Source: Styela clava
Taxonomy: Eukaryota > Chordata > Ascidiacea > Stolidobranchia > Styelidae
Assembly (NCBI RefSeq): GCF_964204865.1
Contig: NC_135253.1
Coordinates: 21,984,001-22,048,000, forward strand
Length of the DNA: 64,000 nucleotides
Direction of reading: 5' to 3'
Within the stretch, counting starts at the first letter, position 1. Each line of letters begins with the position of its first letter. The translations under genes and the position numbers were made by a program. Positions 50,601 through 55,800 of this stretch are shown here, in pieces. The notes beneath the pieces were generated by a model. It was not told the origin of the DNA. It saw only the letters and a list, made by a program, of their open reading frames with translations, and made no database searches.

Positions 50601-50960
50601 TGCTATCTATGATACAGGAAAATGATTTTATTTTTTTTACATTTATAAAGGGGGGGGGGGGGGGGTTCGACCCGCAAAACCACCCCCTGACTATGCCACT
50701 GTTCTGTAGTAATAAAAAATATTAGTATTACTTCAGCAAATACAAAGAAAAATTACTCCCATAACTCCTCGCTGGGAAGGATCTACCTGTTCAGGAGACA
50801 TGGCCTCATCATATTTTTCATTTCTTAGCTCAACAACATACAAATGAAGATCCGTACTGTCGAATTGAGAGTTAAAAGTTTGCAGACTGAACTTGATCAC
50901 AAGAAAGATGACAACAAGGAGTTGATGAAACTGTGTGATGAATTAGTCGGAATGCAATGA
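47643..50960 (+). CDS. TACC: TACC-family (transforming acidic coiled-coil) protein
   Basis: Three coding exons, 47643-49768, 50145-50259 and 50829-50960, joined in phase (2, then 0), give 790 residues. The ATG has a strong context (CAACCATGG), and an in-frame stop lies at 47559-47561. The first 590 residues look disordered, with many Thr-Pro sites (repeats of MTPxSKIMTP type near 235-280), plausible mitotic kinase targets. From about 595 a long coiled coil forms the TACC domain (EADIQRVLKRKKEKWALERD, then KSLQTELDHKKDDNKELMKL, ending CDELVGMQ). This domain is the family hallmark. TACC proteins bind XMAP215/ch-TOG and stabilise centrosomal and spindle microtubules. Which vertebrate TACC it matches best cannot be decided here; invertebrates usually have one. 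Confidence 0.93.
50494..50700. mobile_element. poly-G tract interspersed repeat in TACC intron 2
   Basis: Two G tracts (12-16 bases, 50519-50532 and 50648-50668) bracket GGTTTAAAAAGCATTTCAAGC and GCTATCTATGATACAGGAAA. Same family as 4745-5215 and 56465-56710. Confidence 0.75.
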
Positions 50961-51101
50961 AAAGGATATTCTACTGCCATCTGGATAGCTTGGTGGCATC
51001 TAATTACAATGTTGTGCTGATTTGAGTTAAATTATCCAAAACTGAGTGCTCACTCCAGCTCTCACACTTTATACAACTGCCTCCTGTGACCACAGAGTAT
51101 G

Positions 51102-51107: not shown

Positions 51108-51674
51108 TTTGAGTCAGAAACAACTCTTGGTTATAAATTTTGACTGTTGACTTCAGGTTATTATGAAGAAAATTTAAATCCGACTGCCAATCCTGATAAA
51201 ACTAAATTTCTATTTAAAGGTGCGTTTACACTGGATGCGTCGCGACGCGTTGCGAAGTGCGCTCGAGATCGCTCTCCATTGTTTCAAGTGACGCCGTTCA
51301 CACTGAAAGCGCGGCACCTAACGACGACGCGCGGTGCCGCTGCTGATTCTCTCGCTGAGCGTTTTTCGGCGCGACTGACCTTCGAATTCCACGTGCTTTT
51401 TTGCGGCGGTGTCGGCTGCTTCCCGTGGGAAGTGGTTTTACATTCTGCTTAGATCAGAAGGTACCGCATTTTATAACTGCAATATCAAATTAGGTACCGT
51501 TTATCGTAATTTATAAGTTAAATATCCAAATTAGGTACCGTTATCTAGGTCAGAATAAAATTGATTGCAAGTACTAGTGAAGGATTGTAGTCTTTACTAT
51601 TTGCTATACCGGTACCGGTATGAATTCTAACAACAATTGTATTTCGAATTCATTACAAACTTTGTTTCACAGTC

Positions 51675-53286
51675 ATGTCGTTTGAAGAGCTTTTAATAAA
51701 TGAGGTGAAATCTAGACCATGTCTGTATGACATGAGTCCTCATTATCGTGATGTTAATATCAAATCCAACAATTGGGCGGAGATAGGAGCATTGCTGGAT
51801 TTATCTTGATGGCAAAATCACGTTGTCTAAAATATTTTCAAGTACACCAAATTGAAAATAAAAGCTTGCTTTGCTCAACTAACACCACAATCTGATATAG
51901 CTATTTAGGACAGCAGGCAAGAGAAGTCAAGATGAAAAATAAAAATGAAAGTACCATGGAGTCAGGGGCACCCCGAGGCGTTTCAACGAATAAATGGCAT
52001 CTATTTGAACACATGACTTTTTTAGATTCCTTCGTGCAGCATCGAAAGTAAGTTATTTTGCATAAAATCGGCACAAGAGTAAATATTGAGCTGCTGTGAT
52101 ATGTTACTATGATGAAAAGTGTGTGCCTATTTCAATGATATATCTATCACATGTTTTGAAAGGATCTGTTCAATTTGGTACAAGTTAAATTCTTTATTAA
52201 TTTGAAGTTATTTCAGGACCTTTTCTATTTCATATTTCAGAACGTCCTCAAATTTAGAACTTGTCACTCTATCAGCTGTGGTAGAAGGGGAAGAAGTGTC
52301 TGGGTCATCTTCTGTCGCACCGACACCAAAAAAAAGGAAGGAAGAAGTGAACATGCGGATTTTGAAAATTCTTGAGGAGGAGAAGGATGGTAATTTTTTT
52401 AACCTTTTCGAACATCGTTTTTGTTTCATGTTTTATCTACGGTCACACATGATATGGTGTGATCGAGATTAGTTTATTATGTTGTAGAATTAAAGGGAGC
52501 GTATGCATAGCATGCTCATATAGACAAGACAGCTACCGTATATACTCGCCTATAGGTCGCAACTTTTTACCTATTTTTAAAAAAAAATATAGGTGTGACC
52601 TATCCGCTCGACATACAGACGATTTTACAAAAATTTGGATATAGGCCATTTCTACAAATCGTAACACGCCGCACGCATCTATTACAGTTGACCTGGTTCT
52701 AACCATATAAAATTATGAGCGTCATTAACATATTTTGATTATATTTTGCCCTACAAAAAAACAAAATAGGAAGATACCTATGCAAAAATCTAGGAAAAGG
52801 GCTTTTTAAATCCGTAGATTTTCAGTTTGACTTATGTGCGAGTCAAATCAAAATCAAACTTTTTTAACACAAAACTAATAGTGCGACCTATACGGTGGTG
52901 CGACCTATAGGCGAGTATATACGGTATGCTCAAATATTTGGCAAAAAAAAATAATAGCCTTCTGGGGAAAAATTTTATCTTTAACCAATGAAAATTTCAA
53001 AACAATTGGTTCAGTTACCAAAGAGAAAAGCGATTTCTTCTGAACGTGTCAAAGAAGAACAAGACTAAGTCTAAGAACAACAAAACGTTCACTATGTCCA
53101 CTACGTGTCCAATAAACACGTAATGGTATAGAATATTGATACTATATATATTTATTTGTAGATGATCCAGACAAATTCTTCCTTCTTTCACTTCTACCAC
53201 AGCTGAAAAGACTGTCTCCTGAGCGTGCTTCATCAACAAAGATGAAAATCATGCAATTACTCCATGAGGCTGAATTTGAGAAATGA
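51675..53286 (+). CDS. Harbinger accessory protein with MADF and BESS parts
   Basis: Start at 51675 (MSFEELLINEVKSRPCLYDM), a typical MADF N-terminal half through WAEIGALL, but the frame meets TGA after 44 codons. Later exons are clear: one ending at 52047 (KWHLFEHMTFLDSFVQHRK, starting near 51910 after TATTTAG), then 52241-52389, then 53162-53286, joined in phases 2 and 1. The last exon encodes a BESS motif (DPDKFFLLSLLPQLKRL). The middle of MADF (the W-K-x-L-R-D helix) is missing between 51806 and 51910. Either a splice I cannot see bypasses the stop or this gene is damaged. In the superfamily this protein binds DNA ends and helps the transposase enter the nucleus. Confidence 0.65.
52534..52926. 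mobile_element. MITE nested inside the Harbinger
   Basis: Ends TACCGTATATACTCGCCTAT and the inverted ATAGGCGAGTATATACGGTA are perfect for about 28 bases. Non-coding, 393 bp, lying wholly within the last intron of the MADF/BESS gene. It must postdate the host element. Confidence 0.9.
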
Positions 53287-53804
53287 TTCAAATTCAATTT
53301 CCCACTTAAAAATTAGAAAATAAATTCAAACGTTTTTTTATCTTAATTACAGTACATTACTAAATTTAATTGACTCCGTACAAACTTGAGCAACCTTCTC
53401 TAAACAAGAACTCAATTTCTAAAAAATTTTAATGTTTTTTATTGTTAGTTTACCTCAACCATTTTATTATTTGTTCAGGCAGTATGCTTTTTCATTCTGG
53501 CTATTTCTCATTACAGCTTCATGGAGTATTTGCATGATTTTCATCTTTCTGCTGCTGTTTATTTTCAAATATTCTTTGATGAAAAATTTGGATTATTTTC
53601 CAAATTGATTACAGCTTGAAATATTTTAGTGTAGCGTGTCAAATGTAAAATCTCTCATTCAGTAATATGTTTTTTCGATGGTAACCACTAAGCTAGATAA
53701 AAGGAACTTTTCATGTCCTTCTGACTCTTTGAAATTGCCAGGGGCAAGCTCCATCAACCATGAAATAATTTTTAAAGCTGTCGCGAACAGCCGCCGCCCC
53801 TACA

Positions 53805-55253
53805 CTATTTCTGCGACCTTGCCTTTGCAGGGGCAAAAAACTGTTGTACCCGCCAACTTCCTCTTGTTATGTTTCCCTCCAGGTCTTCCCTATCCACTTC
53901 ACCTGCATCTATCAGTGTATGGCGTCTTACATAATTATGCAAACAACATGCTGCCTTCACAACCAACTCTGCGTTTTGTGGCGACACACCCATGGGCCTC
54001 CTAAAAACTCTCCACTTCGCACTCATTATACCAAATGCATTTTCTACTACTCGCCTTGCCCTGGATAGCCTGTAGTTGAAAACTTTTTCATCAATTGGCA
54101 AATTTCGCCCCGGGTATGGTCTCATCAGGTGCTTCTTTAGTGGGAAGGCTTCATCCCCCACTATCACATAGGGAGCCTTTTTTGAGCTGTTAGTAAGCGT
54201 TGTTTCATCCGGCAAATTCAGGGCCCCTTCATTCATGAGCTTACCGAGAGCAGAGTGGGAGAAAACACTTCCATCACTCTGCTTTCCGTAAGCTCCCACA
54301 TCGACAAAAACAAAATTATAATTGGCGTCGACAAGGGCCATTAGCACAATGCTGAAGGTGTGCTTGTAATTGTAATAAAGGGACCCTGAATTCACCGGTG
54401 CTTGAATTTGTATATGTTTCCCATCTATGCTCCCTATGCAATGTGGGAAATTCCACTTTTTCTCATACTCTTCAGCGATTTGCTTCCATTTTGTAACTGT
54501 TGGCGGGCTTAAATATTCTTTTTTGAGTGATGTCCAAATTGCCTCACAAGTTTCTGTAACTATTCCTGAAACTGTTGATTTCGATGTCCTATATGAATCT
54601 GCTATTGTGGTATAAGAATCCCCTGTTGCTAAAAATCTGAAATATGATATATGTGCACTTTTATTTGATGTTATGTTTATTTTGTTTTTAATAGTTCTAT
54701 GTGGATGTGTTATAATTTGAATATTTTCTTCCACATACATTTTGCTACATGGTTTGAATATACAGTAATTGCTCACCTTAATGTTATTCCAAGCCTCTCT
54801 TCAGGAGATATAGGTTCTCGGAAATTAGTCGTGGTTTTAGTTATGTAAGGAGCCACTAGACTCCTCAGGTCATCAAACATACCAGGGTCCAGGCGGTATT
54901 GGTTACGAAATGCAACCGTTCTTTCAAGTCTCATTTCTTGGACAAGTCTATGGTACTCACCTGCGTAGAAAGTAATATTAAATGAAAGATAAATGTTTAT
55001 TCAACTTCAAGCTCTACCGTCTGTTCAATACACAGGTAGATGAAGAAAACAGTATAAGATAGCCTATGATTAATTAATCTTATATTAGTATTTTGAGGAA
55101 AGACCACGCAATTTCATAGGGCGATGATTTGAACTTACCAAGTTCTTTCCTTCTTTTTAATATGGGATGAACCCAATGTTCCCTTTGCTTTTGCTCCGTA
55201 TTGTTTGCCAAATAAAGGGCGATTGCCAATCTTTTCCTTTTCGAAAGTGGCAT
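53805..55253 (-). CDS. PIF/Harbinger DDE transposase (HARBI1-like)
   Basis: Three exons on the minus strand, 55253-55139, 54960-54777 and 54636-53805, join in phase (1, then 2) to give 376 residues without any stop. N-terminal part: ERTVAFRNQYRLDPGMFDDL. A helix-turn-helix follows at about 101-125 (FLATGDSYTTIADSYRTSKS). The DDE nuclease follows, with D171 (GSIDGKHI), D221 (QSDGSVF) and E298 (RVVENAFG) as the likely triad; D261 in VGDEAFPL is also conserved in the family. The C-terminus contains CCLHNYV. It cuts and joins the element's ends, producing TAA duplications. The terminal repeats show it is a transposon gene and not domesticated HARBI1. The start at 55253 is the first ATG of the exon. 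Confidence 0.93.
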
Positions 55254-55599
55254 ATTTGTAAATTTTGTAGCGGAGTGGGAAGCAGACGAAATTCTAGCTG
55301 AATTTCCCGCGTCAATGTTCCTAAGCAACCGCCTCTAGCGCCCTTGAGTGGTGAAGAAATGACGCGCGCTATGTAAACACCTGCCCCGCGCGACCAGAAG
55401 CCGCGCCGCGCCGCGACGCATCCAGTGTAAACGCACCTTAAGTGTCTGCGTGCCTTTTTTATCTCTCGCGAATGCTAAGTCAATTAATTACTAGAATCAA
55501 AAGCATATTCTAACACCCGACACAGTTTGAAAATAGCTCATATAACAGCCCTCTTGAACTAGCGCCAGAACCCACTTTCCGAATCCTTAGTATTATCAG

Positions 55600-55800
55600 C
55601 ATTAGCAACTATTCAAAACTATGTGCCCACTCCAGCCCTCCACTTCATACAACTGCCTCCTCGGACCAGGGTTCTGAATCTATATCCTTATCAAAGTTGT
55701 AAACTTGTATAATCAGGTATCCGCATCCTCCGGTGAACTGAAGCCAAGGACCCTATTTCCAGATCCCTATCCAAAGTTGTATGCTCGAGTATTGAAATAA
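55600..55800 (+). other. diverged duplicate of the TACC 3' flank; possible small exon
   Basis: 55613-55680 resembles 51037-51105 (CTCCAGCTCTCACACTTTATACAACTGCCTCC-like), so the TACC 3' region was duplicated and the Harbinger now sits between the copies. After TAATCAG at about 55718 a frame reads SGELKPRTLFPDPYPKLYAR and stops at a TAA that overlaps AATAAA. It may be a real terminal exon or chance. Confidence 0.35.

Follow-up and report, generated by a model that had tools for sequence, protein, structure and literature searches.

A young PIF/Harbinger subfamily of Styela clava with common lesions in both genes, probably mobilised in trans by older relatives

A transposon that seems intact may in fact be a passenger, and without a comparison of sister copies an open transposase frame is misleading. 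This question is raised by an element of about 4.2 kb in the ascidian Styela clava, which lies in the 64,000 nucleotides that we analysed (contig NC_135253.1 of assembly GCF_964204865.1, positions 21,984,001 to 22,048,000; hereafter the window). According to a sequence-only reading of the window, the element is a clean two-gene Harbinger copy that moved recently and may still be an active source. Whether it is a source or a passenger depends on its ends, on the state of its two genes, and on the other copies of the same genome.

The TAA duplications and the identical 27-nt ends that had been described for this element are present as follows.

51218-55438: whole element, delimited by its ends and the flanking TAA
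51215..51217, no strand: left target-site duplication, TAA
55439..55441, no strand: right target-site duplication, TAA
51218..51244, + strand: left terminal inverted repeat (27 nt, exact match to the right end)
55412..55438, - strand: right terminal inverted repeat (27 nt, exact match to the left end)

The inverted arms extend over 38 nt (51217-51254 and 55402-55439) and are 92% complementary. When up to three mismatches were allowed, the first 22 nt of the end were found at two sites in the window, both of them exact; 0.00 sites were expected from 100 shuffles, in which none was found. Genome-wide, the same 22 nt gave 51 matches with at most two mismatches compared with one for the reversed control. 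The duplicated target is the 3-bp TWA that is characteristic of PIF/Harbinger elements.

The first gene, on the minus strand, encodes the transposase.

55139..55253, - strand: transposase exon 1, with the ATG at 55253
54777..54960, - strand: transposase exon 2
53805..54636, - strand: transposase exon 3, with the catalytic domain and residues D171, D221 and E298
about 53843-53845, in transposase exon 3: 8-nt deletion, common to the young copies discussed below, which puts the last residues into another frame

The sequence-only reading was correct in that the three exons are joined through two introns with GT-AG sites into a stop-free frame of 376 residues that carries D171, D221 and E298, and the predicted splice junctions leave this frame open. 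The protein matches Pfam DDE_Tnp_4 (E = 3.6e-35) and is a DDE transposase of the DDE_Tnp_4/HARBI1 type; a sequence search of the PDB returned one unrelated weak match (E 0.22). The same reading had called the frame uninterrupted, which it is, but the 8-nt deletion replaces the C-terminus and leaves 376 residues in the window copy (W) compared with 410 in older copies. The missing tail includes a motif of the YF...G..PWQ type that is kept in seven of eight other Harbinger loci examined, a chosen set that by its tails represents approximately five groups, four of which have the motif. In L056 and L058 the motif lies on a separate open piece, and the distant L059 is without it. One amino-acid change is private to the W transposase, at residue 267, where W has the residue carried by another family.

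The second gene, on the plus strand, is the MADF-BESS partner, and its structure in W is compared here with that of an older copy, C18b.

51675..51809, + strand: partner exon 1 remnant, matching positions 1-36 of the 84 of the MADF profile, with TGA at 51807
51789..51796, + strand: scar of a 38-nt deletion, common to the young copies, that removed the 5′ splice site of intron 1
51909..52047, + strand: partner exon 2, acceptor kept, with a common 27-nt deletion at about 51925
52241..52389, + strand: partner exon 3, identical to C18b
53162..53286, + strand: partner exon 4, with the BESS motif, identical to C18b

The element is a PIF/Harbinger with a MADF-BESS partner gene, and the joined exons 3 and 4 match the BESS profile at 5.8e-12. 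In C18b the partner has four exons and 191 amino acids, with the full MADF domain (1-84) and BESS; in C8 it is also open, with two codons fewer and a large insert in the last intron. The second gene of the Myb/SANT/MADF class that accompanies PIF/Harbinger transposases is therefore present at the level of the family. W itself does not have both genes intact, and the clean gene pair that had been proposed for it is contradicted by three losses: exon 1 stops at 51807, the donor of intron 1 is gone, and so are nine codons of the MADF core. The 38-nt deletion, which in C18b is seen to be flanked by two 8-nt direct repeats, takes the first 5′ splice site of the partner and leads to the stop, and the 27-nt deletion in exon 2 accounts for the nine MADF-core codons relative to older copies.

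It could be argued that the partner is not truly broken and that the young copies make a working protein by an unusual splice or from an internal start. Exons 2-4 of W can still be read as a single open frame; splicing of exon 1 to exon 2 at either of two weak GT sites would yield 157 or 161 amino acids, and an internal ATG would give a BESS protein of 129 amino acids. However, the products of all three lengths are without the MADF core, and Pfam recognises BESS, not MADF, in the retained exons 2-4. We regard a functional partner in the young copies as highly unlikely.

A search of the animal's own genome (376.6 Mb) returned at least 128 matching pieces, many of which are copies of the repeats that are nested in an intron, and 14 sizeable copies were examined; L017 and L018 (older and diverged) and L019-L021 (short end pieces) stand outside these 14, and further complete copies may exist beyond the best-scored search candidates. 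Five copies are young, namely, W, C5a, C16, C18a and C17. Between W, C5a, C16 and C18a, pairwise differences amount to 6-12 substitutions over approximately 4.2 kb (0.14-0.28%). C17 is 99.6-100% identical to W outside two inserts, and the 75 differences (1.8%) of its pairwise alignment are produced by misalignment of these inserts. C18b, C13 and C5b are 0.8-1.2% distant from W and C6a is 12.7% distant, and C8 is 96.6-99.1% identical to W, in pieces. In trees of the two gene regions, built from 12 of the 14 copies, the young copies form a single clade with 100% ultrafast bootstrap; at several nodes, within this clade and below it, support is weak.

The flanks of the five young copies are unrelated to one another, and every copy lies between perfect TAA or TTA duplications, which indicates that they spread by transposition and not by segmental duplication. 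The sequence-only reading had proposed that many near-identical copies with TWA duplications would support recent activity. Four near-identical sisters (inserts aside) were found at unrelated sites, each with its TWA duplication, and the recent movement of the element is well supported. In total, W and eight more copies (9 of 14) have perfect TAA or TTA duplications; C6b and C6c have common flanks and together represent one insertion event. The duplications of C6a and C5b are unequal, C18b and C6d each miss one end, and the duplication of C8b was reported one base out of register. For C8, one of the two copies (with W) that were examined for an empty site, insertion exactly at TWA is seen from such a site, since L052, L053 and L057 have a single TAA where C8 inserted within the end of another Harbinger family. 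A joined-flank search of the assembly for an empty allele of the W site returned the two flanks and a 63-bp repeat only. Second ends were also sought near 14 loci that have single ends or fragments, for most of which only approximately 1.5 kb of the inner side was covered; allowing as many as five mismatches revealed no pair. C6a (L012) has a recombinant appearance: it lies between TTA and TAA, its left flank and not its right flank is common with C6b and C6c, and its identity to W is approximately 83% over much of the partner side and approximately 96% on the transposase side.

The sister copies are approximately 40-45 nt longer than W, and the possibility that W alone lacked a portion of the MADF gene was considered and rejected, because the private deletion is intergenic and the MADF lesions are common to the five.

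53555..53556, no strand: 42-nt deletion private to W, between the two genes

The 38-nt and 27-nt partner deletions occur in all five young copies and in none of the eight older copies in which the region is preserved, and the five also lack 3 nt in partner exon 1. Similarly, the 8-nt transposase deletion occurs in five of five young and zero of nine older copies; at this site C8 carries another change, which keeps the frame. Lesions that are found in every young copy and are absent from the older ones most simply precede the burst. We infer that they arose once before it, rather than having spread by gene conversion, and that they destroy the function of the genes. The young copies have ends like those of their coding relatives, and the presence of the same lesions in five of five copies at separate sites suggests that they multiplied with their genes already broken, as is expected of non-autonomous derivatives.

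Most older copies have other lesions in the partner: C13 has an exon-1 insertion and an exon-3 frameshift, C5b an exon-1 insertion that brings a stop, C6a-c a stop in exon 2 together with indels, and C8b indels and a stop. The insertions of C13 and C5b (L007 and L011) are small, differ from each other, and occupy almost the same position in exon 1; that of C13, with its 8-bp duplication, looks like a possible excision footprint.

Which copies could have supplied the proteins? The partner is open in C18b and C8. The transposase reads to 410 residues in C18b, C13, C5b and C6b and to 408 in C6a, with the acceptor site lost in C5b and a substitution (F301S) near the catalytic E298 in C13, so that an open transposase of 408-410 residues is available in C18b, C13, C6a and C6b. 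The transposases of C18b and C6b differ with dN 0.032 and dS 0.125, as expected under selection, and the older lineage looks constrained; the tail alone, a short stretch, agrees (dN 0.009, dS 0.074). Both genes are open in one of the 14 copies, C18b, and its right end is gone, which weakens the proposal made below and makes present-day activity uncertain. The other donors would each contribute one open protein.

The proposal is that the young copies, at least five in number, are a non-autonomous subfamily of a MADF-BESS PIF/Harbinger family that was moved in trans by older relatives, and we consider this probable. A founder copy would have suffered deletions in both genes and would then have been cut and re-inserted several times by proteins from older copies with open genes. 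The MADF-BESS partner would bind the DNA of the element and bring the transposase to the nucleus and to the ends, and the DDE transposase would insert the element at TWA. The ends, the duplications, the identity of the copies, their common lesions and the open genes of older copies are directly seen in the assembly, and the supply of proteins in trans is what we infer from them. The sequence-only reading had favoured a possibly active source copy in W; with its partner deletions common to all four sisters and its transposase C-terminus lost, W is more plausibly a passenger than a source.

The division of labour between partner and transposase is adopted by analogy with Ping/Pong and Harbinger3_DR. 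According to excerpts of the published accounts, both proteins of the rice Ping/mPing system are needed, and mutation of the Myb domain abolished excision in yeast (PMC2836001). In the studied members the partner binds DNA, and in Harbinger3_DR of zebrafish it also carries the transposase into the nucleus (PMC2836001, PMC9710019). The excerpts also describe cross-mobilisation between the relatives Ping and Pong (PMC2836001).

Another possible helper is a different Harbinger family of the same genome, with its own MADF-BESS gene and a transposase approximately 50-53% identical. Its loci L052, L053 and L057, which are mutually 96-100% identical in blocks and possibly also young, have open last exons of 321-322 residues and MADF and/or BESS matches. 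Their ends are unlike those of W, however, and the cross-mobilisation described in the excerpts concerns closer relatives, with 77% transposase identity between Ping and Pong (PMC2836001). We therefore give this family very little chance of being the helper.

A further explanation dispenses with helpers: the shortened transposase of 376 residues would move the element without a partner, as one-gene Harbinger-like elements such as Spy presumably do. One-gene Harbinger-like elements with a helix-turn-helix (HTH) are reported from invertebrates (excerpts of PMC9179366). The DDE frame is indeed open despite the broken partner in W, C5a and C18a (376 residues) and in C17 (378 residues, two more than W), and with its triad retained the young transposase may be active. 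Residues 99-125 give a weak HTH match (E 0.0023), below the cut-off at 18.1 compared with 24.6 bits. Loss of the C-terminal residues need not be harmful, since mutation of a C-terminal export signal raised the activity of the rice transposase (excerpts of PMC2836001). However, most related loci retain the lost tail motif, the relatives characterised in those excerpts depend on two proteins (PMC2836001), and in C16 a private frameshift, which may postdate its insertion, cuts the transposase to 325 residues. Self-mobilisation thus appears unlikely. It would mean that the shortened transposase reaches the nucleus and recognises the ends unaided by any MADF protein, and the further claim that a two-gene Harbinger became a one-gene element within this genome, so that the young subfamily escaped the two-protein rule, appears very doubtful. 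The copies that spread last are nevertheless those that had lost the partner, and the family therefore provides a natural experiment on whether a Harbinger transposase is functional when its DNA-binding partner is absent.

The biology is ordinary, but if mobilisation in trans is correct it offers a clear example of a two-gene transposon that its defective offspring have outlived. MADF proteins as partners of PIF transposases have already been published (PMC9710019), and the insect elements described in excerpts of that work are similar in their DDE_Tnp_4-type transposase, MADF protein, inverted ends and 3-bp duplications; W and its four sisters differ in the broken partner and the lost transposase tail. 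Ping, Pong and mPing also form a two-gene system, whose members that lack functional genes are mobilised in trans (excerpts of PMC2836001). The defective copies here, for which mobilisation in trans is our reading, are nearly full-length with damaged genes, whereas mPing is a short MITE. Harbinger3_DR is likewise an animal two-gene Harbinger, with a transposase and a Myb-like DNA-binding partner (excerpts of PMC2836001 and PMC9710019), and the partner family here is MADF-BESS. Spy resembles the young copies in having no working Myb-like gene of its own (excerpts of PMC9179366), but W keeps recognisable broken MADF-BESS exons, and its relatives have an open partner. A literature search that combined PIF Harbinger, MADF and BESS returned no paper, which is weak evidence because most subscription papers lay outside its scope.

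Several repeats accompany the element, and one of them lies within the partner gene.

52534..52926, no strand: unrelated nested MITE-like repeat with 28-nt perfect inverted ends, in partner intron 3

This repeat has many partial copies across the genome at 81-88% identity, was not detected in C6a, C6b or C6c, and is adjoined by a second dispersed repeat at approximately 52941-53153. The end of the BESS exon (53238-53272) recurs as a 35-nt inverted copy at 53514-53548, in the 3′ region of the transposase, and a similar inverted peptide-coding stretch is found in the older diverged copies L014, L017 and L018. An extra transposase exon encoding this BESS-like end was considered in W, C5a, C18b, C13 and C6b (the script did not find the stretch in C8b) and was rejected because no open BESS domain precedes it. 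L029, L040, L046 and L050 have ends identical or nearly identical to those of W, and their internal sequence is related among the loci. L040 matches the inner parts of both W ends, approximately 0.8 kb apart, and is probably an older short derivative.

The element had also been placed between duplicated TACC 3′ flanks. What lies astride it is a non-coding direct repeat of 63 bp (51030-51092 and 55607-55668, 84% identical), which is likely the source of that impression; the TACC C-terminal peptide occurs once in the window, at 50868-50957. The window also encodes proteins that we take to be TACC-like and RBM26/27-like. A long array of 54-nt tandem repeats at 2142-2981 has open frames on both strands.
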